A DNA stretch of 52,459 bases, taken from Ectocarpus siliculosus. Its lineage: Eukaryota; Sar; Phaeophyceae; Ectocarpales; Ectocarpaceae. The DNA is taken from NCBI GenBank assembly GCA_000310025.1, contig FN649727.1:5161601-5214059 (forward strand), written 5' to 3'. The first letter of the stretch is position 1, and every line of letters starts with the position of its first letter. This document shows, piece by piece, positions 23,201-39,270 of this stretch. The notes under the pieces were generated by a model, which worked only from the letters and a program-made list of their open reading frames with translations, was not told the DNA's origin and made no database searches. The translations under genes were made by a program, and so were the position numbers.

Positions 23201-26200
23201 ATTTATTTTCTGGTGCTTTCACTTCCAGAGACCGTTATAGGCACTGTGTACCTGCCTCGAGGATGTTCGACCATTTTAACACAACGTGGTGCGATCATCC
23301 CCCTTGCGCGGAGTGAGGATTGTCGACCCCGCACAACATGATCTACTAGACCAACATTCATGGTTACATACCGCAGTAAAAACAAAGGCAAAAAAAGAGC
23401 GGTAACCTGGTTGCCGAGCTCACGAAGTGATCGGCTTGTTTTACAACATCGCTGCCAAGCGACGAAAACCCAATCCCGATGGCAAACACCGGGGGGGGAA
23501 GCTTGTTTTACAACGTCGTTGCCAAGCGACGAAAACCCAACCCCGATAGCAAACCATCGGGGGGGGGGGCGTACTCTTATGTTTTGCATGCCTTAGCGGT
23601 TAGACCATTGACCACGCGTCCTCGAGAGGACGAAGCATTGTTCCCACAGGACCGACCACCGATGGCCAATCGTTCCTTCCTACTTTGCCAAAGGTGGCTC
23701 AAAAATGTCTTCCCTAGTTTGTCTATCCTACCGATGTCCCTTCCCGCCTTTTCAAACCACTTTCTACTCCCCAGTACCGCTACCGTCCTCTCCTCCCTAT
23801 TACATGCCTCAAACATCTCCCTGTACGTCCCTTGTATTTTTCCCAGCTCAGTCATGAACAATTCCCTCTCCTTTTCGTACCACGGACATTCCGCGACTAC
23901 ATGAACACTGTCTTCGCATTCGAAGCCGCAATCACATTTGAACTTGTCGTCTTCGTCGTCTACCGTCCTATGTCTTCGTCGACGTTCGCGAAGGCCTATG
24001 TCCCCGGTCCTGAATTTGACCTTAAGCTTTGTCCCTGCATCCATTGGTCCATGTAGGTAATCCTTGAACCCTGTTCCTTCTTTCAACATTCCGTACACTT
24101 CTAGACCCTCCTTATCCTTGTATTCTTTCCTTAGATTCTGTTCTTCTCTGTCGGCACAAGCAACAGATATCTTCTTCTTGAACCCCTGTAGACCCTCCGT
24201 TTCAAGCGTTTCATCTTCGTCGATGTCAAATCCCTTCCATACGTCCTCTACAACCTTGACCCATTCCGTGGGTTGTCTACCCCTCTTTTTGTTTGCCCAC
24301 TTCGCCTCCCATACTATTCTCGGCAATCTCTCCTCTCCCATCCCGCACATGCGATACTGCCATGTCAGCTTCCTTACGTCTCTTCCCGACCGTAGGGATT
24401 GGATCCCCAATTCTGCCCTGACTGCTGCATTACTTGTGCGCTTGGAGCATCCTAGGATGATTTTCGCTGCTTTCATCTGCGCCGCCTCGAGTTCTTTCAC
24501 TACCTTCTTATTTCCTTCCCATACTTCTCCGGCGTACTCTAGCGGCGGTACGATTACGCTCTTCAAAACCGTCAATTTGATGCGTGTATCAAGGTGCCGG
24601 TTTGCGAGTATTGGGTGCAGCTTCCCTGCTCGTGCTTTGCCCTTTTCCGCTACCTTGGACATGTGTGTATTCCACGAGCAATCTTTTGCGATCTCTACTC
24701 CGAGGTATGTGTACTGGTCCACTACTGCAATCTCCTCGATCCCCCACTTCCATCTATGTTCTACTGGTTCCTCCCTGCCCTCGTTGCATACTATGACGGC
24801 ACTCTTCGTAACGTTGGCAGACAATCTCCACTTATCAGTAAACTTCTTCGCCGCGTCAATTTGCAGTTGCAGTCCCTCAGGGGTGTCCGACATACCAACA
24901 AAATCATCCGCAAACAGCATTCCTGACACCGAAGTTTCCGTGTCCCCTACTTTTACTCCCTTCCGGACTGCGGGGGGGGGGGTACTCATGGGTCGTGCAT
25001 GCCGTAATCGCTAGACGATTGACCTCGCATCCCTACAAAGCCGGGACGGAGCACGCCGGGTTCTCACCGGACCAGGCTCTCACATCACCAAGCGCGAAGC
25101 GCCGTGAGGTATTTGGCGAGTCGCATGAAGGGTGAGCTGCATCCTGCTAAGGGTGTTCGGCATCTTGTGCTTACTTCCTTGCGTACGGATGTCAGCTACG
25201 TATGACTTAATTTATTTTCTGGTGCTTTCACTTCCAGAGACAGTTGTAAGCGCTGTGTAACTGCCTCGAGGAAGCTTGACCATTTTAACACAACGAGGTG
25301 CGATCATCCCCCGTTGCGCGGAGTGAGGTTTCTCGACCCCGCACAACATGATCTACTCGACCACCATTATGGTTACCGCCAAAAAAAAAACCGAGGTAAA
25401 AAAAAAAAAACGGTAACCTGGTTGCCGAGTTCACGAAGTGAATTGGCTTGTTTTACAACGTCGTTGCCAAGCGACGAAAACCCAAACCCCGATGGCAAAC
25501 ACCGGGGGGGGGGGCTTGTTTTACAACGTCGTTGCCAAGCGACGAAAACCCAACCCCGATGGCAAACATCGAGGGGGGGGGGGATAATGGCCGCATAGGT
25601 AATCATGAAGGCGCGTGTTCCATGTGGTTAGCTCTGTGTGGTGGAAGTACAGCATCCCCTTCACAGTTGCCACCCCGAACGCTGTTGCCGCTCCCCATTG
25701 CTGTTGCTGCTGCTGGGTTCATTCCAAGCGAAGGTTAACATTTGTGGTGGACTCTTCGAGTTGTAATTGGAATGTCCGAGAATGCCAACGTGAACCCCGA
25801 ACGATTCCGACAGCCGGTGTTTACGGTATCCTCATCCCCCCACCCTACCCCCCCCTATCGTGCCGCTGGAAAAGCTCCTGGAGGGCTACAGAGCGATGAT
25901 CGCGCGCACGCACAAGTGGTCGATCCCCATGTTCGGGCTCGGTCGGGTGTCGCTCGACGTGTTCCACTGGGGCAGCAACTGGAAGTGGATTGACGCCGTG
26001 CAGTACCACCTCGCACGCTCTGTCTTCATTAGGCAGCACCGGTAAGAGAATCGAAGGGAAAACTGGGGGAAACAGAGCAAGGCGCGGGGGAGAGGGGACG
26101 GGGGTGTGACTGGACTCCTGCGTGACCGCAGTCGGTCAACTTGCTTGGGCGTTGTGTGCCTGCGAGCCCGATTCTTTGGCGGAGAGATATTGCGCTTTCA

Positions 26201-26368: not shown

Positions 26369-29135
26369 CTCCTTTGCTGCCTTGCTTTTTGTTTGGCAGC
26401 CAAAACGCGAACTTTGACTTCGCGAGGTACGCGTGCTTGGTGACAGACCGACAGATTCTCGGCATGGCCAACGTCTCGCTCGCCAGCTGGCTGGCACTTC
26501 TCGTTTTCCGCTGGGTCTCGTACGGTCTGCAGGTTGGGTTGTCTCGCGACGGGTAAGTCTTGGGAGGGGTGAAGGGGTTGTAGGTGAGATTTTTTCTGTT
26601 GTGCTTCCGCTGGGAGCGATGCCGAAGGTCATGTTGTCCTCAGAAACCTGATCGAATGGCGCGATTGCCATGCCACAAGTATCCCGTTCAACATCCAGCC
26701 AAAAGAAAAACCCGGCAGACGTCCCTGTCAACCAAACCCAACGACCCCTCCCCCTGTCGCGCGCCCACCTACAGTGGCACGGTGAGCTTCCGGGCGTGGT
26801 TTGTCTTCGGGATAGTCCTCTGCCTGTTGGAGCTGTCGCTCCTCTTCGCGTGCATGCTGGGGGTCAGGAGGGTGTGCATCAAACTGGGAGCCGATCCCCA
26901 GGACCCCGTGAAAACGGTGGATGCTGTCCTCGAGAGGATCTGGGTCGCCCCGATGTGAGAAGAGTTGTGTAGCAAACGCTTCTCCAGTGGTCATATATGT
27001 TCAGGTAGACATGTTGGATCCCCTGATGTAGGCGTTGTTCGCCCGAAAACACGATGGAGTGGTGAGGAAAGTCTTAATCAACCCTGAAAGGAATGACGCC
27101 TCGAGAAGGAAAGCGGGAACGGCCCTCGCCTCACTTGAGATACATCGCGACCGACTTTTCAGTGCAACCCCTTCCCCGACCCCTTTGTCTTCCTTCTCGA
27201 CCCGATCTCCACACCGCGGACAACCAGGACCCACGTGCAGCACGCGGCATCGATGCACGGGATCGGGAGGTCAGCACTTGGCGAAGGAGCGACGTCCGAC
27301 ACGCCTGGAAATTCTTGTGCCGTCGACGCCGATCAAGCGGCGATGGTTCACGGCAGCGAGGGTGGCGGGGGGTTAGAGGCGGGCAGGAGCGCGATCCGCT
27401 CGACGATGCCGGACTTTGCAGAGGAGATGCCAATGAGAGGGGCGAACATCCCGGAGATCACAATGAGAGATGCGTTCGTCTTGCCGATCGGCAAAGCGTA
27501 CAAGCAGGCCGTCGAGATCCTGATGCTGCTGAACTCGTACTACCTGGCGTTCTACGCTGTGTACTTCATCAGCCGTGCCTCCAAGAGCGAGACCGAGTGG
27601 GTGTGGATCATCGTGCTACCGCTGCCCATCCTGGCCGGCGTGCTCATGGCGTACCGGAGGGTACTCCCGCTGATCGCGTTGCTTTCGACGATCGTCATGA
27701 TGCAGCCCACGGACGTGGCAGATGTGAGATAACTCCGGGTTGAGTGGAAGAGAATCTCTTTGTATTTTCTCCCGCTGCTGTTGCTGTTGCTGTTGCTGTT
27801 GCCGTGTCTTTGACAGTTTCGCAAAGACAAAGCGCTCCTGTACGTGCATCGCTCCACCAACATGCCACCAACTCACCCACCGGGATATGTATGCCGCTTA
27901 TACGCTGTATCCTCGCACCCCACCCCCCCCGACTCGGTCATGCCTCCGCAGGTGGAACAAGAGGCCGAGGAACTGAACAAGCTTCGCCGCAAGCTGGTGA
28001 TGCGGGTGGAAGACGTGCTTGAACAAGAATTTAAGGCGAGTTGTTGTGCGCGTACATGGTCCGTCTTCCACGCAACCTTGTTTCGACGTTTCGAGGCGCT
28101 CTCGTGTTGTTATGACAAGGATTTCGTTGCTCTCACGCGTATATATCGGGCCTGTGTGTTTTCCCTCCCCTTGTATATTTGTTTCCCTTTCCTGCCGGGG
28201 CAACACGCAGGCTTGCGCCGAGAGCGGCGAGACACGTGCTGATGGCCAAACTTCGGCGGCTTTTCTGCTCAAGCGTTGGGACGAGGACGACAACGGGAAC
28301 CTCAGTCACCAGGAACTGCATAAGTGAGTTCGAGCTCGTTGTGCTGTATACGCAGCGACCGCTGTCTACCATCCCTTTTTGAAATCAATCCGGAGATGTG
28401 TTGACCGGTGCGGAAACTAGGTGTGCGTCGCAGTGCTTGAACGTCGTTGTATTTTGTCAGTAGCCGCTGACAACTGCGAAATCGAGGGTTAGACAAAGTA
28501 GACTTATCAGGACTAGGAGAGGTGAGTATGAAGCAGTTTTTGGTGCTTCTCCGTCTACTTTTTGCTTACTTTCCCTTGATAGCAACGAAGAGGTCCACCC
28601 TCTTTCTTTCCCCTGTTGCTGCCGGTCTCGTTCCCTTCCGGTAAACGGATCCCGACCCCTCCCCCAATGTTCCCGCGGTGTTCCTCCCCCCTCCCCGCCC
28701 CTTCCTACGTCGATTCGTTGCTTGCCGTTGCGCACGTGGATTCGGGCGCACGCTTGTGATTCTAAATGGCAATGGCAACGGCGGTACCTTGAGCACAGGG
28801 GGCTGGAGGAAATCGGCCTCCTTCTCTCCAGCAAACAACGACGCGAGTTGATTCGCCTCGCGGACCCGGACAGGAGCGGTGGCGTGGATATCAAGGAGCT
28901 GGCTGAGCTGCTCTACGACGTTGAGGTCGAGATAGCGGCGGGCCGAAGTGTAGAAGGAGAAGAACAGGCCGCGGCGGCAGCGCCAGGACGCATGGGACTG
29001 ACCACCAGTTTAAACACGAAGGTCGGTTTCCGTAGGACAGGCAGCGGATTGCGTCCCAACGGTTTGTCTGATGGTGGCGTGAATGACAGGGTCGAGCGTT
29101 TGCTGCGGAAGAGGGCGTCAGAGAAGTGGTCGTGA
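17261..29135 (+). CDS. MLO-family seven-span membrane protein with C-terminal EF-hands
   Basis: Exons: 17261-17331, 19379-19556, 21085-21190, 22280-22350, 22789-22911, 25875-26041, 26400-26552, 26775-26954, 27228-27723, 27817-27843, 27952-28035, 28211-28323, 28799-29135. All phases close to give 701 residues. A signal peptide (MKLLLLFPLLLLSRTAFA) precedes a DH(A/T)S-repeat segment. Spans lie near residues 69-88, 119-135, 143-165, 255-280, 294-318, 445-470 and 475-505. MLO hallmarks are LSKYEQWLKS...YEKIVRELMTLG, YPIKRRW and NANFDFARYACLV. Plant MLO proteins are Ca-linked membrane proteins with a calmodulin-binding tail. This one instead has two canonical EF-hand loops, DEDDNGNLSHQE (576-587) and DPDRSGGVDIKE (612-623), so it may bind calcium itself. 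Least certain are the exon 6 acceptor (C-rich, no clear tract), exon 10, and linkage of exon 1. Intron 11 is GC-AG. Five repeat or transposon units sit in introns 1, 2 and 5. Confidence 0.85.
17867..17960. repeat. 14-bp perfect inverted repeat, 66-base loop
   Basis: ACATTTTACAATAC at 17867-17880 is exactly inverted at 17947-17960. The outer bases (GGTT and AAGTTACC) also pair partly. It lies directly beside the foldback element and may be a separate small hairpin element or part of the same insertion. Confidence 0.7.
17971..18471. mobile_element. 500-bp foldback (MITE-like) element in MLO intron 1
   Basis: The left arm (about 17971-18160) and right arm (about 18283-18471) are inverted copies about 185 bp long with about five mismatches seen by eye. 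The centre also pairs imperfectly (TTCAAGATGCGCAA against TTGCACATCTTGAA), so nearly the whole element can fold into one long hairpin with a loop of roughly 20-30 bases. The two strands therefore give almost the same translations, which explains the mirrored frames and argues against a gene. No transposase is present, and target duplications could not be fixed. Confidence 0.85.
19380..19471 (+). repeat. 12-bp coding minisatellite in MLO exon 2
   Basis: About seven units of GACCACnCCAGn encode DHAS, DHTS and HHTS tetrapeptides in the extracellular N-terminus of the MLO protein. In another frame it reads TTPVTTP, but only the His/Asp frame joins exon 1 and the first span. Confidence 0.8.
19667..20205 (+). 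repeat. SINE-like repeat, copy 3 (inverted relative to the others)
   Basis: This is a near full-length copy in MLO intron 2, opposite in orientation to the other four. It starts after a C-run (19667-19672) with the GGTGTTTGCCATCGG module, passes through the conserved body and ends TATGAGTACG plus a C-rich tail at 20191-20205. Confidence 0.85.
22073..22135 (+). repeat. (CT)n microsatellite
   Basis: An interrupted CT/CTTT run in MLO intron 3, about 150 bp before exon 4. Confidence 0.85.
22957..23569 (-). repeat. SINE-like repeat, copy 4
   Basis: It is in MLO intron 5. Read on the minus strand, it follows the poly-C end of the LINE fragment, has two tandem copies of the TTTGCCATCGG...GTAAAACAAGC module separated by a C-run, then the conserved body, and ends GAGTACACCCCCC. 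It is head-to-tail with the LINE fragment and copy 5. Confidence 0.85.
23570..24971 (-). mobile_element. 5'-truncated non-LTR retrotransposon (LINE) reverse transcriptase
   Basis: An uninterrupted minus-strand frame of about 465 codons reads from the truncation point to the TAA at 23577-23579. It begins just before the catalytic FADD box (VSGMLFADDFVGMSD), continues through the RT thumb (LSANVTKSAVIVCNEG) and ends with a Cys/His motif (CDCGFECEDSVHVVAEC) typical of non-LTR RT C-termini. Endonuclease and RT motifs before FADD are missing, so it cannot move alone. The stop codon lies inside the terminal 45 bp shared with the SINE-like repeats, and a poly-C run follows. The lack of frameshifts suggests a recent insertion. 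It is in MLO intron 5, antisense to the gene. Its clade cannot be set by eye. Confidence 0.9.
24972..25583 (-). repeat. SINE-like repeat, copy 5
   Basis: Its structure matches copy 4: two 5' modules (near 25515-25572 and 25435-25503) separated by a C-run (25504-25514), the body, then the GAGTACC plus poly-C end at 24972-24982, which directly abuts the truncated LINE. It lies in MLO intron 5, about 290 bp before exon 6. Confidence 0.85.
26322..26367 (+). repeat. (CTG)15 repeat 32 bases before MLO exon 7
   Basis: This pure CTG run stands where a polypyrimidine tract is expected; the acceptor CAG is at 26397-26399. The plus-strand frame stays open through it as poly-Cys, but phase and MLO homology place it in the intron. 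Confidence 0.9.
27773..27803 (+). repeat. (TTGCTG)n repeat before MLO exon 10
   Basis: TGTTGC hexamers lie 13 bases before the proposed acceptor TTTGACAG at 27816. This is the second MLO intron with a CTG-type repeat near its 3' end. Confidence 0.8.
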
Positions 29136-30101: not shown

Positions 30102-33100
30102 CTATCTTGAGTCGTCAAAGTCGCAATAGGCGGCGGAGTGCACGGCTGCGGCCGTCAACGATTTCCCGCACCATTCGCATATTGTCGACCTGGTTTCCGC
30201 GTTCATAACGCTACTACTACCAGCATCACGACCGGCACATCTTGCACCCTCGGGCAATGGGGCGTTGGCTGCAACCTCCCAGTGATTTTCGGGACTGATG
30301 GTAGCGGAGTTCGCCGCATCATATGCCATATCGGAGCGCGAAATCTTTCCGTTTCCGGCTGCTGTGTGGCCCGTTGGTGTCCTCACGAATTCAGGGCCGG
30401 ACGTTTTATCGAGCGGGACGGTTGCGCTGGTTTCGCCGGCAGCAATGCTTTCGTCCATGGCAGGGCAGGGGACGGCCGCATGTAGCGGCACGTCGCGGTT
30501 CTGATCCTTGGGGCAGGAGACGGGTGTTGTTGCCGTCGTTGAGCTGTCTTGGCATTTTGTGCCAGAGTACATGCCGACGACGGCCGTAACCCCCGATCTC
30601 GAGACATGTGCGCCCCCACCTCTCGAAAGCAGGCCTTCCAGTCTCGATCGCTCTCCGTGGTCCCTTCCGTCCTCCATCCACAGCCACAACTCGGCGGCGT
30701 CTACTATACCGCCGGACGTCAAGCACCCAATGTCGTCGGTTTCATTCTCGAACAACTCTTGCTCTTTCGGGAGAGCAGCAGAGTGGGAGGTTGGCATTTC
30801 CCCTTTTTCTCTACCGCCCGTAAGGCTACCATGCCTCCGCGAGACAGTCCGACTGGGCCCCTCGTGCCTGCCTCTACCGCTGGTAGGGCGACTACCCACG
30901 GCCTCTACTGAGTCACGTGTCCTGATCGTGGCACCATCCTTAGATTCACGCCGTGCAACGATGGTCGATCGCTTCCTCTGCGGACTTGGCCGCCATGCAG
31001 GGGACACTGGATCACCCTTATTAGTATCATCGCCAAGTGGTGGTGGCGGTGCCTCAAGTCGACAATCGTACCCACTCCTCACAAAAAAGTGGCGGATAAA
31101 TATGGCATCTCGGGTAGCCGCGCGACGACAGAACTCGACGAATGCCTCCTGCGTTAACACTCTCGTGCCCAAGGCTTCGTTGTTGGACATCTCCGGTAGG
31201 CCGAATGCCGCCGATCCACGGTTAGGGGAAAGCTCGGACGGTTGAGTTATTTTCCTTAGAGCGCGTTTGGGCGGCGGAGATAGTCGCGGCGGCGGTGGCT
31301 CGGCATCGGGGCGCGTCCATATCTCCTGAAGGGCGGACACCTCGGCCGAGAGAAGAAAGGCGCGGCCCGGTTTGCCGCTTGGAACGTAGCGGTCGAAGAC
31401 CTCTTCAACGGCTCTCTTCGCCTTGGCCGTAAGGCTCACTCCACCGTCATCTTCTGTTGTGAAAGCGATTTGTCCCTTCTTTGCCCGCCGCGCCCTTTCT
31501 GCAATAAATGGCTTCTGCCTAGGTCTATCAACGCGAGGGCTCACTGTGTGTTCTAACACTGCGTTTTGTACCCATTCAGCGGCGGCGCTATCAAATACTC
31601 TCCGTGTCACCTTTCTGTCACTCCTACCGCCGAACCCAGGCCCGAAAGATCGGGATCCTCGTAGCGAATTACGGTCATGCTGTAGATACCCGGGCCTCGT
31701 TGTCGATGGCATCCGTTCCAGTGTGCCTGAGACCAACCCGTCACGAGCGTCAGCAGTAAATGTAGGTGCCCCACCCCCCCTCCACCCACGTCGCGGCGTC
31801 ACCCCCGACGCTCCAGCGGTCTCAGCAGGTGAAAGGAGATTCGTCTCTGACCCCGACCTCCTTCGTCCTTCATCTTCTAGGGAAAACTCCACACGTGCTG
31901 GTAACGAAGGGATGGGAGTACCTCTCCTCCTGTCAACCTCCTTCCGCACCTTATCACCGGCGATACCACGACCCGAGCCTTGCTGGTTGCTGGGTACGTC
32001 GTCGGCGAAAGGCTGCGATGACAACACCGACGGGTTATGGCGCCGCTGGTGGGACGGTCCGTCCATGTTTGGAGACCTGCCACCAGCAGTCGATGAAAAG
32101 TGGCTGGGGGCGTCAATAGGGACCTGGCTTTCCCATGGGCTAATGTAAGCCCCGCGGGACGACCCCGATGAAAGCAACCGGGATTTGACGTCCCCCCTCC
32201 ATCGTTTGAGCTCGTTCACCATGTTGCAACTGAGGTTTTGTACCCCAGAGGATGGTGCAAGGTGACTTGAATCCCCCGTTCCGATCGTCGCCTTCTCCGT
32301 GGGGGCCTTGTTGGCGATGTGCTGCTTCGGTGTGTTTCGCACGCTCTGCGCGGTCTGTTCATTTTGTGTCATGTTTTTAGAGATTCAGGGCCATGTGCAG
32401 GGGGCAAGAGAAGAGCAACGTTGGCTTCGAAGAATAGCGGCATTTTGCCAACAGTCATGCCAGAGCTATACATATGACGCTCAAACAAAAAGACAGCAAT
32501 AAATGAATAAGCCGTTCGTTTGCAAGGTAGAGAGTCAACTACGCATAACCATGACAGCGTCGAGTGTCACCACACCGGTCTTCGAAGTAGCGAGCATAGG
32601 GTTTACCTTGGCATACGTCAGAGTGTTGAGCGTTTCTTCCAGCATCCCGTTGTTGGGGGTGATGTTCAGAATGATGGCTGTGAAAGCGTTCCCACCGAGG
32701 CTGTCCCCCAGCACCCGCGTGAGCTTCGACTCGCGGTAAGGGATGTGTGGAGCGTGCTTAACAAGGGCTTTGATCACCCGGCCCAGCGCTAGCAGACTCT
32801 GGCAAGGTTGCCAGGGATTGCCAGAAAAAAAATGGCAACAACGCAATGACGGCTGGTGTCAACAGAGCATGGCGGAGAAATAAGTCTCCTCGACAACCGA
32901 TACGCTTAATGTTGTTCTGCTGCTAGACAATACCCCTTCCATGGTCGACGGCGTGTTTCCACCCCTGCAATGGTCGACAGCGTGTTTCCACGTTGTTGAG
33001 ATATATTTCTGTGACTGGGGGGACGCCTTCGCGTGGCCTGCTGGAATCCCGTGGGCATGTTGTGCAACGGAGTTGGCCGTGTGCAGACATAGCACAGCAA

Positions 33101-36100
33101 TGGTGATGGTTGTCACGAGAGTGAGTGAAAACAATCGATCGGATACGATTCCGTGCCAGCGAAGAATCGAGGCAAATACGCAGCCTAAAGTAAGTCAAAA
33201 TCCTTCAGAAGCTAACCTGTCCGATCGCAGCTGCCTCTTTCGCCCTATCTCCGACAGCCCCAGACCTCTTGATGTTCTCGGAGCCTGAGAGATCGACGAG
33301 ACTGAGCCGCCCGTCTCGGGTGATCTCACCTCCCCACGGTGTGGGCTCGGCGGAAATGACTCTCACGCAGAAGACCCCGTGACTCCTGCTAGACTCGACG
33401 TTGCACATTGTCTGGGAGGGGGGCAGTCGCACCCCGGGAGCAATGCGACAGCGGCGGTGACAGGTCAATCAAGAAGTGAGGATGGCGTGTGGTCTTTTGG
33501 CAATGTTGGAGAACGCGAGTAAGTGGCTGATCGATTGCCGGGATGGGCGACGTTGTCAACTTCGGGAGCATGGACACGAGTTGCAATGTTGACAACGACG
33601 ACTCGCCAAGGGGAACGGGGTGCTTCTGGTTCGCCTGTAGGTTGCCCAGAGTCTCCCCTAACACAAGTGTCCTTTTGAGGGTGGTGGGAAGGCAATAGAG
33701 TTGACGGCCTCAAGGGGCAAAATGTGTCGTGCTTCGTTGCACGAGATACAAACAGGAGCGTTTGAGAGCGACCCCACGAGGACGAACAGTTGAAAGGGTG
33801 TGCTTGAATCATGGGTTTGCTTCTTCACACCTCAGCCGTGCGCCTGTTGTTCTTGCTCCTGGCGATGATGGCGAATATCTCCTCCGGGCTCTTCACCTCC
33901 ACCTGCGTCAAACCCTTAACCATCACCCCAAGATGCCGGTCTTCCTCGATTGTTAGTCCGATCCCTTGAAGAGGACGGCTGCCGCTGCTGCCGGGGGTGC
34001 TACGTGGAGACCGGTGTGTTGGAGAACGGGAACGGCCGGATGTAGAAGAGGGTGCTGCACTGCTGTTCGTCGCCGAGGCTTTGGCCAAGGTGGCGGCCTC
34101 AGGGGCCAGCAAATCGAACAGCCTCTCGTTGTAGATCTCCATATGGGACACGTACACCCAATATCGTCGGGTCCCACCATATCCCCCCTCTCGGAATATC
34201 GTGTGCACTGCGCGTGGTATGATGCCAACCTTTTCGACCTCGCAAGCGGTGGCATTGACGTCGTCAGGGTCGGCCTCTGCCGTCTTCTTCACATCAATGT
34301 TCGGGTCCACTAGCCCACCCTCCATGGTGAACGTCTTTCCGGACCCAGTTTGACCGTACGCCAAAACAGAGCAATTGAAGCCATCGAGCATTTTCCGCAC
34401 TACTGGACAGACTGCTTCCGAGTACAATCGAGCCTGGCTGGTTCTGGGACCTGAGTCGCGTTGTGGGTATGGAGACGAGGGTGGAATGGCGAGGAAAGAA
34501 TGGAGCTGTTTTGGTAGAGCCACACCCACTTCGTTCGATGAATGTGCGCCTTGGGCCCAAGAGGTTCGACCTCCTAACAAACCACAGTATCTCGTCGTAA
34601 AGATGTATGATGCCCTTTAAGCGTTGGTGGCGTCGATAGTGTGATGTGTTTCATGCCTACCGTCTGAGGGTATTCTGCCAGCTACAGCACGGGAGCGAAA
34701 AACATTGTGTCACTAGGCAAGGTGAGGGAAGTCTTACCAAAAACGCGGTCGAACCCAAACCTCCTCGATCGCTTTGTCGGCAATCTTTCATCCATCACGA
34801 TAATCTCGTTGCCGTCGCAGAACACGGCGGCCCTCACCCCTCGCTTCATCTCCCGCGTGAGCAACGGGCGGCACCGTGAAACAACGGCGATGTTGACCGG
34901 AGCGTTACTTTCTTCTTTCCCTACCCCGCTACCATCATCGCCATCAGTGTATTCCTTGTCGGCAGTCGAGCGGCGACGGGAAGCGAACAAAGATTTCCTG
35001 CCTGGACCAGACGCGGGAACTGCTTCGTCGTCCTCTGCCAACGCCGAACTAAGAGCTGCCGCTCGTTTCGTCGCTACTGCGGCTGCTGCTGATGCCTGCG
35101 CTGTTTGATCCTTCGCCCTGCCGGTGTTTCCACCGCCGCTCTCCGTCCCACGGTCCCCGCTAACGATGCTTCGTTCTGCCCGTCCTATTGCAGCGGGTAT
35201 GTCTGCTATTTTTTTCGGGGGCACCCCTGCAGCCGTGATGCGCACCGTCGGGAAATTCTCGCGGATGGAGCTGACCCTCCGACTTCCCGCGCCGGGAACG
35301 CTGCACCATAGCGCACGGCAAGTACCCTTCCTCTCAGCTGTGATGTAAAACCTGGAGAGCGGGTACAAGCGCACATGAACGGAGGCGCGGAACATGACAA
35401 ATCGCGGGGAACCCATGTTCATTGTTGTCATGATATGCCTGTACGAGGCACGTATGGGGAACATCGACCGGTGTATCGCGTACCAGGACGGGATTCAGCC
35501 AGGGTTAAAGTGACAAGTGACAGGATAGAGCCATGCTACGCAAGCTGAAGCTCTTGAAAAAGTAGAGACAAATAAAAAGGCTGGAAAAGTTTTGACTATT
35601 TACATAAACTGCTACACTCACAAGTTCATATCATCATCGACGGCCAGAGTGGCTGCAAACCCGGAAGAAATTCGCGCAAGTTTTCCCTCGCTGTGGGAAA
35701 TGCCAACACCGTCGCCCCAAGTGGCGCCCGCATGTTTGTCTCGCCCCGCAGACGATGCTCGTTCCCGTTTCTCACATGCCGTGCGACTCCTGAAATCTTC
35801 TCGCCGGGGATCAACTTGTGGGACACGGCAACGTTTTCTCGTCGACAAAGACCCTATCGATGTAACCGTGCCATCGTGGCTGGCCCCGCATAGCGACATG
35901 TAGATGGCACCCCCCGCGCCTGCGACAAGACCAGTGATGACCGGCAGTCCTTCGGCGACCAACCAGCTGTCTTCGGTGGAGTAAGACGGAGATGCAACGG
36001 GCCTCGGTGAAAGTGTCTCGTCGGCTGTGTTGGTCGATAGTGCCGTATGGGGAAACCTATCGACGTCCATCTCGTTCGCCGGAAACGCACGAATGACGCC

Positions 36101-37882
36101 CTGGCTTTTCGCAACACTGGCCCCACCATGTAGGGGGAATGGGCGGGAGAAGGCGACGACGACCGTTCCGTCTCTGAGAACGCATAGACCTACGGGCTGC
36201 TCACGATGGCGTTCGCTATCCTTTTTTGATGCTGAAGGCGACTGGAAGGCAAGTATCTCGACAAAGTCCACCACACCGCGCCGCCTGCGGGACCGGATAG
36301 AACGCTCGGACCCGTTTTCTTTTACCCGAGCTCCGATCGATACCCCGGCCACCTCTTGGTTGTCGTGGTTGTCAAAATTGCCATCGTCAGAGTCGTCGGA
36401 AGAACTGCCCCAATCGGTGTCTGATTCGTCGTTGAGGAAACTTAGGTCGTCGATGGGTTTCTGTTTCGCGTCAATCTGGGTGCCAATCCCACCCGTCTGT
36501 CTATCGTGCCGATGGGACGTTGCGCTTTCTTCTCCGCTTGTAAACCGCCTTCTTTTCGCCTCTTCGTTGCTCAACCACGCGTTAAAGTGAGATCCACGCA
36601 AGGACCGAACTCTGTATCGTTTTGGTCTGCGGCAGAAATGTTGTTGTGAGCCACTAAGATTCATAGCTTGGTCGGGGTCGTTGTCGCAATGTCGTCTTTT
36701 GTGCACCTCTTCCAGGACAAACACGCTCGAGTCTGTGCCGCCGATGCACAAAGCGATCGGCTTGCACAAATTCTCAACCAATGTTACTGCCTGTTTCGCT
36801 CCCCGCCGGAGGAAGCGCAGTTGCCATGTTCGAGGAGGGGGCGGGCGATTCCTAGATGCTCGTTCTTGGTTGACTTGTTCTTCTCGAAAGGTCCGGTTGG
36901 CACTATGTTCTGGGGGCTGTGGTGTGGTCGTCGTTGCTTTCGACGAACTACTGCAATCCACTGTGACTGCTGGTGATGCTTGCTCGATAAAAAAAACTCC
37001 TGTGCCTGTACCTGTACTTGTTGCCGCTGCCACGAGAATGGGCCTGTTCAACCCACTGAGTAGGATCTTCACGGCTTCTTCCTTTTCCTGTTTGTCTTCG
37101 CCTACGCCGTTATCTGGAGATCGTGCTTGCGTCGGCACCACGGCAGGACAAACCGTGCTCTCAACGACAAAGGGTACCTTTGTCTTCTGCGGTTCTGCAA
37201 CCACGGTGGGGCGTAAGGAGGCCTCTTCCAAGGCTGATCTGGAGAGGCGATCGACAGGCTCCGTTCGGTATTGACATATTCTACCGTCGTATTGATCCGC
37301 CCGTTTCTCCAGTGAAGCCGTTTGACAACTTTCGACAACAACATTCGTCACACTGTCCTCTGGTGGATGCTCTCCCACCTGGCCGGTGTTGTTCTCTACT
37401 ACCAGAGTTGGCCAAGCCACTGCATCATCGACGTCTGCCAGTAGTTTTCCTGTCCGAAGCGGCAGACTCTTTCTTCGTCCTTTTCGACTATCGTCTGCAC
37501 GGGCATTGGAAGCAGGGTTTGAACCTGCCTGGTGTTCCGTTCGGCGCTGTGCCGTTGTACCTTGGCTCCCATGTGCCGGCAATACTTCACTAGACCCTGT
37601 CAGTACTGTTGGTTTGCTGTCTGGTACTGATAAATCAACAGCAGTAGGCACCGGTCGTACGGGAAAATGGTACGAGCGTCGACGTCCTGGGAGCTGGTCG
37701 ACCCGGGTCGGGCAAGAGAGCATCATGCTCCCTAGCAGCCCTCTCCGCCTGTCGACAAATACTAGCCATCGTTGTTTGACTTTTTTTTTCGCGACGGTGG
37801 AAGTCGCGTCAGGTTCACTGGGTCCGTCAACAACGGCGATGCTGGTAAAGCTGCACGGCTCAAGTAGTACTTCGTGCTGCAT
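30102..37882 (-). CDS. NHL-like beta-propeller / kinesin motor fusion protein
   Basis: Exons (minus strand): 37882-35622, 35351-34738, 34450-33831, 33411-33217, 32798-32607, 32354-30102. Phases close to 2044 residues if ATG 37882 is the start; upstream exons are possible. Residues 1 to about 785 have about six widely spaced NHL-like strands, such as [10 protein letters not shown]...[45 protein letters not shown] and [20 protein letters not shown]. The last crosses the exon 1/2 junction. The kinesin motor (about 907-1307) is complete: P-loop GQTGSGKT, switch I NVESSRSH, switch [21 protein letters not shown] and a Ser/Pro-rich insert. It should be an ATP-driven microtubule motor, nearest kinesin-5 by eye, without the long coiled coil of that family. 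The tail has a possible EF-hand-like helical pair and ends in a C2HC motif ([19 protein letters not shown]). Cargo is unknown. Confidence 0.85.
32941..32992. repeat. 29-bp tandem duplication in a kinesin intron
   Basis: ATGGTCGACGGCGTGTTTCC at 32941 recurs with one change at 32970. It is within intron 4 of the minus-strand kinesin gene, so it has no coding effect. Confidence 0.75.
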
Positions 37883-39270
37883 GCATCGAAACAGCGGAGA
37901 TATATTGGGCCAAAGGAAAGGTGTGATGCGTACCGCGTGCCATGACCAAGGTATGATAATCTAGACAGTTTTGTCAACAACCGTATTTTCGGACGTACGT
38001 GCGCCCACACATGTTCCTGCCTTGCATATCATATGTACCACTATTTACTTACGTAAAACAACCAAGAGAACCGATAAGCTTGTACACATCTCCACATAGG
38101 TAGGATCTGTATGCCCGTGGGTAATGACGCAATTGGCACCGCACACACACACCTCGAGCTTCGCACCCAAGTGTTGTATGCAAAACAAGTGAAAACAAGC
38201 GAACAGAGTACGTCAACCGGCCGAATGCATGTTCACTGTAGGAAGATGTCTGCGTTGGTACAAGTTGTAGTCTAGTCTACAAACTACGCAGTTTGTTTAG
38301 TAGTACCTGGAACGAGCGATGCAAGAAGGCGGGCGGCTTCGCTGTCATGGTGAGCAGGACTAATCATGTCCTTGATATGAGACTGGATGGATGGGCTGTG
38401 CCAAGCGCTCACTTCGTCAGTCTGAAAGTGCATGCCGGCGCATGGACGATCCACTGATTTGGAAATAGAAGTATGAACACGAGCATTTGAGCGCTACTAC
38501 TGCTGTACTGCACCACCGCTTGGACTACAGTTCTGCTTTACTGCTGCTGCTGTAGAGCAAATTCTGGAAAATTCGCCGCATCGCGACGAAACGTCACCAA
38601 TCCTGCCGCATCTCCTCTAACAGAAGATCTGCTGTATCTCCACATCCCCGCACGGGGCAATTGTGTATCAAGGCGTGTCTAGCAAAAGCTAGGTGAGACT
38701 CGTACCGATTCGTAGAGGTGGAAGTAAAGTGGAATTGCAGTGGTGCGTCTGCCGCTTCGGTGAGCCTCTTCAGTTAGCCTGAACGTGAGTGTGAAACGTT
38801 GGTGGGATGTCCAGGACTCCAGGACCAAGTGTCTAGACTTCACGCACATGAGAGGGACTACTAGGGGTTTCCTAGGCCTTGAGGCAACTAGCCTGATACC
38901 TCGTAGTCCATATAATTTATTACAGTAGTGTAGACCAGACCGTATTTAGGCAGTCTCGAGCTGGTCTCGAATCCCATTTTACAAGACTGACGCTTTGTCA
39001 AGATCGAAGTCACGTTTACTGATTTTGTGAAGCATTGACAATTAATATAGACATTTATTTGTATTTTCCTTCTGTGTTCTGGTTGTCCGCGTTATGTTTT
39101 GCAGGTTGCATCTCACAGACTTAGTCTACAGCCTGCTCTCGAATTCGAAGTGCTTAGGACCACGCCGTTTGGACGAGCAACATCAACGAAGGCAACATCT
39201 TGCATCAAAGACGGCAACGAGTCGATCGAGGGGAGCTGCCGCGGGGTTCTGCAGATAGCTACTTACCATC
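37883..39270. other. Divergent promoter region of kinesin and LC8 genes
   Basis: This 1.4-kb spacer lies between the 5' ends of the two genes. It holds CTACTACTGCTGTACTG near 38494 and a tRNA-Thr-like fossil on the minus strand (about 38965-39005). An upstream kinesin exon could be hidden here, since its start is not proven; none was recognised. Confidence 0.45.

Follow-up and report, generated by a model that had tools for sequence, protein, structure and literature searches.

Kinesin-5 motors, among them Eg5/KIF11, Klp61F and Cut7, are taken to work as bipolar tetramers. The rod and the bipolar assembly (BASS) domain on which this arrangement rests are described, in the available part of the source, as long helices (PMC3978770). 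In Silvetia compressa, the available text of two studies describes a kinesin-5 that is sensitive to monastrol and needed for bipolar spindles, and kinesin-5 inhibitors that disturb both spindle bipolarity and the poles (PMC2706839, PMC1564386). A different design is found in KIF21A and KIF21B, kinesin-4 motors with a WD40 propeller; the WD40 region of KIF21B is described as a second microtubule contact that helps to keep the motor at microtubule ends (PMC5383399, available part). As far as the accessible portion of another study tells, the regulation of KIF21B by TRIM3, a separate protein, runs through the RBCC domain of TRIM3 (PMC3782429). Here, a kinesin gene is described from a 52,459-nucleotide stretch of the Ectocarpus siliculosus genome (contig FN649727.1, positions 5,161,601 to 5,214,059), called the window throughout. 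The gene lies on the minus strand between 37882 and 30102 and, in the reading that we somewhat favour from its sequence, its six exons encode a 2044-residue, stalk-less motor of the kinesin-5 class behind an N-terminal NHL-like propeller.

The minus strand of the window was read from 38300 to 29800, and the six exons named in an initial annotation of this DNA were spliced in silico. The spliced product had 6135 nucleotides, a single terminal stop and 2044 residues, so that the six-exon kinesin gene of about 2044 codons proposed there was verified in its coordinates and letters as one frame. All five introns are GT-AG, with lengths of 270, 287, 419, 418 and 252 nucleotides; kinesin homology gives the positions of introns 2 to 5, which lie inside the motor or at its end, and intron 1 alone has no such placement. 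Exons 1 and 6 sit in the two longest stop-to-stop frames of the window (780 and 760 codons, the third having 477), and the 754-codon frame that holds exon 1 is not a chance occurrence, as the expected number of stop-free runs of 780 codons in the window is about 3e-7. The parts of the gene are the following.

35622..37882, minus strand: exon 1, 753.7 codons, NHL-like blades and long disordered-looking inserts (open frame, splice model, NHL-profile sites)
35352..35621, minus strand: intron 1, 270 nucleotides, GTGAGT...CTCTCCAG, putative fusion junction (best frame-compatible pair)
34738..35351, minus strand: exon 2, end of the propeller-like region, linker and start of the motor (splice model; motor start by PDB alignment)
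33831..34450, minus strand: exon 3, P-loop part of the kinesin motor, GQTGSGKT (Pfam Kinesin, E-value 5.7e-33)
33217..33411, minus strand: exon 4, switch I and switch II part of the motor (Pfam Kinesin, 2.6e-13)
32607..32798, minus strand: exon 5, C-terminal part of the motor (Pfam Kinesin, 7e-24)
30102..32354, minus strand: exon 6, neck-linker-like start and long Pro/Gly/Ser-rich tail, stop at 30102 (splice model)

An ATG at 37886 overlaps the proposed start ATG (37882) in a different frame, and upstream the reading frame of exon 1 has no stop as far as 37960, so that the 5' end given here is provisional and a further exon may lie upstream.

The Pfam Kinesin model is covered from position 55 to 322 of 327 across exons 3, 4 and 5, and its start, in exon 2, was located by the PDB alignment, exon 2 alone giving no Pfam match. 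The motor domain is complete, with the P-loop and both switch regions (I and II), and a 13-residue stretch and DLSGSE were read directly in the sequence; this places the protein in the kinesin superfamily. When PDB was searched with the spliced motor, 156 distinct sequences were matched, and the first 27 of the best 60, which were ranked, were kinesin-5 (KIF11, Klp61F/KRP-130, Cut7 and chains named kinesin-5). KIF11 scored 279 bits and KIF4, the first member of another family, 205 bits. The motor thus has its sequence in common with kinesin-5, and the KIF11 alignment continues through the neck linker region to RNTPK. The alignment is interrupted by an insertion (query 177-231 against KIF11 176-191):

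33936..34094, minus strand: Ser/Pro-rich stretch inside the motor, residues 1078-1130, about 39 residues longer than KIF11

The kinesin motor of the initial annotation was therefore borne out by the PDB search; the kinesin-5 class of that motor, and the second kinesin-5 locus described next, had formed no part of it.

The genome itself (189-Mb assembly, 492 contigs) was searched for other kinesins. The Kinesin family gave 138 matches counted exon by exon, with 122 of 191 candidates scored, which amount to about forty genes when grouped by eye. Within a set of 21 kinesin loci (L007 and L008-L027), which represents roughly half of these groups and was picked mainly by score, the window motor was closest to L007 on contig C24, with 260 summed bits against 213 for the next. 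Of all loci compared, L007 (G000:C24:2381000-2390900) also matched KIF11 best (368 vs 276 summed bits), and it shares 74% identity with KIF11 in one exon. Its post-motor stretch LRSMLQASRDKNGVYI presumably corresponds to a kinesin-5 neck, which it resembles, and beyond this neck-like stretch the post-motor region reads N. By its sequence, L007 looks like another, ordinary-looking kinesin-5 locus in the same genome. In a tree of 21 rows anchored to KIF11, the one named reference, from which L014 and L023 had been dropped out of 23 for low coverage, FastTree grouped KIF11, the window motor and L007 with a support of 0.987, about half of the genome's kinesin loci being in the tree. A mixture-model tree of the same 21 rows weakens this result, as it gave the kinesin-5 grouping a support of only 74/84 and placed the long-branched, divergent L027 inside it. 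Taken together, the similarity scores and trees allow the motor to be assigned to the kinesin-5 class with good but not complete confidence.

How the N-terminal exon is connected to this motor is a separate matter, and here the strongest alternative arises: two genes, namely one for a 754-residue NHL-like protein whose frame stops at 35618 and another for a kinesin that begins at an ATG near 35464, each frame being closed independently. Between the end of the exon 1 frame (35618) and the ATG at 35464 of the kinesin frame (34682-35464) only 153 nucleotides remain on the same strand. Into these, a 3' untranslated region, a promoter and a 5' untranslated region would have to fit, which we would consider tight for two separate genes. 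AATAAA was found neither in intron 1 nor in this gap, and one stands 34 nucleotides past the stop at 30102. The splice pair 35621/35351 had the top score, 6.0 bits with 5.1 for the next, among in-frame pairs with a donor between 35900 and 35618 and an acceptor between 35494 and 35001, on a rough and generic matrix with which the homology-placed acceptors of the same gene score from 4.4 to -7.9. The donor and acceptor chosen in the initial annotation are thus the best frame-compatible pair tested, and its 16-residue junction peptide was recovered. The donor abuts the stop codon of the exon 1 frame, and with the donor held to within 12 nucleotides of the end of the frame, an equally good pair appeared in 89 of 5000 shuffles.

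Other observations weigh against the fusion. An equally good pair was present in 448 of 2000 shuffles when a 300-nucleotide donor window was allowed, and when the same geometry was slid over the window, equally good pairs occurred at 718 of 2756 places with the 300-nucleotide setting and at 57 of 2756 with the 12-nucleotide one; the junction statistics are therefore modest. A TGTAA lies 17 nucleotides into intron 1. A codon-usage measure was trained on 4463 codons from other kinesin loci; it separates conserved motor exons from introns and is weak for exon 1. By this measure, 7 of 8 blocks of exon 1 had poorer synonymous codon usage in their own frame than in the next one. Directly ahead of exon 2, 37 codons of the kinesin frame (35464-35352) look coding with the same measure (-0.133 per codon, compared with -0.137 in exon 2), as the start of a separate kinesin would. 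The two-gene model stays open because of this codon usage, weak for exon 1 and coding-like upstream of exon 2; weighing the short gap and the abutting donor, we consider it unlikely, and the joining of exons 1 and 2 into one fused gene likely.

One argument that had been offered for the junction should be dropped. It held that the acceptor at 35351 completes a propeller strand interrupted by the donor. The fit of exon 2 to the blade is no closer than expected by chance. A score at least as high was reached by 548 of 4201 random continuations without a stop, by 358 of 2000 shuffled versions of the beginning of exon 2 and by 52 of 407 stretches taken from elsewhere in the same protein, and 3 of 18 open acceptors outscored 35351. 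A simpler blade-completion score gave the same picture, with 623 of 9797 random continuations as good and again three higher acceptors, this time of 29. Blade completion was consequently rejected as proof of splicing, being unspecific against both random continuations and alternative acceptors.

To address the nature of the N-terminal region, a blade profile was assembled out of 567 segments, which came from 80 bacterial NHL loci, and 12 further blades, which came from TRIM71, Thin and a single stretch of the same genome. NHL-repeat proteins (TRIM71, Thin, Brat) have serial blade motifs of the P-x-x-L-x-V type, and the region ahead of the motor has these in common with them. Scored on residues 1-800 with a two-part profile, whose design was chosen after the sequence had been looked at, the sums of the top three, five and seven blades were matched by 5, 3 and 1 of 5000 local shuffles, respectively; no stretch in a control set of 84, half-overlapping and drawn from other frames, reached any of these sums. 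With exon 1 alone, the corresponding sums were matched by 1, 1 and 3 of 5000. The top-5 scores of the motor (26.2) and of the post-motor tail (21.0) were not above the shuffle mean. Where an NHL propeller would have an array of five to six blades, five sites are credible (starting at residues 278, 372, 560, 646 and 740); they are significant as a sum and were not picked up by the de novo repeat search described below. The candidates are listed below; a further profile site at residue 487, in an acidic low-complexity stretch, was taken for noise.

37712..37780, minus strand: weakest candidate blade, residues 35-57, score 5.3
36980..37051, minus strand: NHL-like blade, residues 278-301, score 10.3
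36710..36769, minus strand: NHL-like blade, residues 372-391, score 11.9
36149..36205, minus strand: NHL-like blade, residues 560-578, score 12.9, sole Pfam NHL match, below cut-off
35891..35947, minus strand: NHL-like blade, residues 646-664, score 6.7
35336..35665, minus strand: NHL-like blade, residues 740-759, spanning the exon 1/exon 2 junction with intron 1 included, score 8.1, not specific to the acceptor

The alternative is that of a single gene whose exon 1 is not a propeller, with a strand-rich, largely disordered N-terminus that looks NHL-like by convergence, and several results can be cited in its favour. Pfam NHL remained below threshold, with 10.5 and 11.7 bits against a gathering value of 20 (E-values of 0.71 for exon 1 and 0.29 for a piece of it), and on one piece of exon 1 the unrelated families DUF4689 (0.018) and New_glue (0.037) did better than NHL, all below the cut-off. 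No PDB match to exon 1 was found at E-values up to 10. Plain HMMER with the NHL profiles built here gives one weak site. The de novo repeat search was not significant, with 3, 9 and 4 of 40 shuffles as good. The best single blade was matched by 132 of 5000 shuffles and by 2 of the 84 control stretches. The reversed sequence had a top-5 sum of 39.1, where the shuffle mean is 27 (standard deviation 5.4) and the real sequence reaches 49.9; part of the blade signal may thus be strand-like composition, because the reversed sequence also exceeds the shuffle mean. Structure prediction, the check proposed in the initial annotation, gave AlphaFold models with a mean predicted local distance difference test score of 35 for exon 1 (753 residues) and 32 for residues 530-753. 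These are uninformative because homologues are lacking, and too poor to be compared with structure libraries.

In favour of the blades, the one HMMER site was matched by 2-12 of 1000 shuffles depending on the build and the type of shuffle. Against this alternative stand the sums given by a profile taken from other NHL proteins, which at most 5 of 5000 shuffles equalled, and the low-confidence AlphaFold strands, which are at most suggestive and coincide with the blade positions (residues 562-568, 574-580 and 594-600; 651-654, 660-667 and 673-679). Tectonin reached an E-value of 0.2, below the cut-off, on a piece across the junction, and an ungapped self-comparison of exon 1 had no clear pattern. 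In its own genome, exon 1 matched itself and one further place at an E-value of 4.12, and none of the ten NHL matches found there at E-values up to 10 lies, by coordinates, within the kinesin gene. A search of viral contigs, which reached close relatives only, found no relative of exon 1. Of the propeller announced in the initial annotation, the NHL-like blades stand, above chance as a set, and Pfam, PDB and de novo repeats lend it no support. A non-propeller N-terminus is in our judgement improbable, slightly more so than the two-gene model. The N-terminal region is, with fair probability, an NHL-like beta-propeller, supported and not proved, whose blades would close into a ring. Compared with NHL-repeat proteins it is far more divergent, with long inserts between the blades, and it is joined to a motor.

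On the other side of the motor, the hallmarks of kinesin-5 are not visible. After the motor, no more than 31 residues follow one another without a proline or glycine, and this criterion, together with a rough heptad count and no dedicated coiled-coil program, gave no sign of the kinesin-5 coiled-coil stalk after the neck; the contrast drawn in the initial annotation with kinesins that carry coiled coils beside the motor thus held after the motor in this rough test. The long helices that make up the rod and the BASS domain in kinesin-5 would not fit, because such runs never exceed 31 residues, and no stretch is long enough for the BASS helices, as judged by length and not by a BASS profile. No Pfam family was found in exon 6 at E-values up to 1 that would indicate a C-terminal microtubule-binding tail or BimC box. 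Two features of the tail are listed.

31074..31439, minus strand: tail segment, residues 1600-1721, holding the longest proline- and glycine-free run
30123..30179, minus strand: C-x2-C-x9-H-x4-C motif, residues 2020, 2023, 2033 and 2038, possible zinc knuckle, read from the sequence

The tail segment had no Pfam match for residues 1590-1740, and its best other match in the own genome had an E-value of 0.149. The terminal C2HC motif of the initial annotation is present in its spacing, and no Pfam model matches it. That this is an ordinary kinesin-5 whose stalk was overlooked through a wrong gene model downstream of the motor is very improbable: the motor is kinesin-5-like, but exon 6 is a 760-codon open frame continuing from the motor end and neck linker, and a more typical kinesin-5 locus exists on C24. 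The protein is accordingly not filed as a functional kinesin-5, because the defining assembly features are not visible, despite its kinesin-5-like motor.

The proposed stalk-less motor with a propeller in front can now be set beside the described systems. Unlike kinesin-5, it has no sign of the stalk, the BASS domain or the tail, carries a propeller-like N-terminus and has about 39 additional residues in the motor. Like KIF21A and KIF21B, it would pair the motor with a propeller-type domain that offers a second functional surface (PMC5383399, available part). Unlike them, it combines a kinesin-5-like motor, no visible coiled coil and an NHL-like domain at the N-terminus. The Silvetia compressa kinesin-5 belongs to the same motor class and probably to the same lineage. 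According to the accessible text, the antibody used to localise it is directed at the coiled coil of human Eg5 (PMC2706839); in the window protein no such part is seen.

What follows on function is drawn by analogy throughout. The motor should be active because the catalytic motifs are kept, and it would walk on microtubules with ATP. Ahead of it would stand the divergent NHL-like beta-propeller with its long inserts, and a mostly disordered-looking tail would replace the kinesin-5 stalk. Sliding of antiparallel microtubules in the manner of Eg5 is probably impossible, because there is no trace of the parts of a bipolar tetramer. For want of any visible means of tetramer formation, the binding of partners probably falls to the propeller and the tail, and the propeller is likely to serve for docking, be it of a partner protein, of cargo or of a second microtubule. 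KIF21B would be the nearest functional parallel. A propeller-anchored spindle motor that does not self-tetramerise, in a brown alga that also has an ordinary kinesin-5 at work, is a role that we put forward tentatively and with less assurance than the gene's architecture.

Three observations on the surroundings were made in passing. An open frame at 28464-29132 on the plus strand, tail-to-tail with the kinesin gene, has a weak EF-hand match (E-value 0.0021, below cut-off). A possible reverse transcriptase remnant lies at 23580-25010 on the minus strand (RVT_1, 5.9e-4, below cut-off). The genome also holds a very large EsV-1-7 cysteine-motif family (EsV_1_7_cys), with 880 candidates, of which 150 were scored and all 150 passed the family cut-off; this family is greatly expanded in brown algae.

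A layout with a propeller before the motor and no coiled coil is unusual. Among the matches listed in searches of open-licence papers, none describes an NHL-kinesin fusion by its title or abstract opening, and a term search of a paper on kinesin evolution (PMC2867816) found neither WD40 nor propeller; a database may already contain this architecture without comment. If the reading of a stalk-less, propeller-bearing motor is true, the kinesin-5-type motor class can be rewired, losing the parts of the tetramer and gaining a propeller in front. The brown alga would then have two kinesin-5-type motors, and the Silvetia studies with inhibitors, in which kinesin-5 is handled as one class, would need to be read again in this light.

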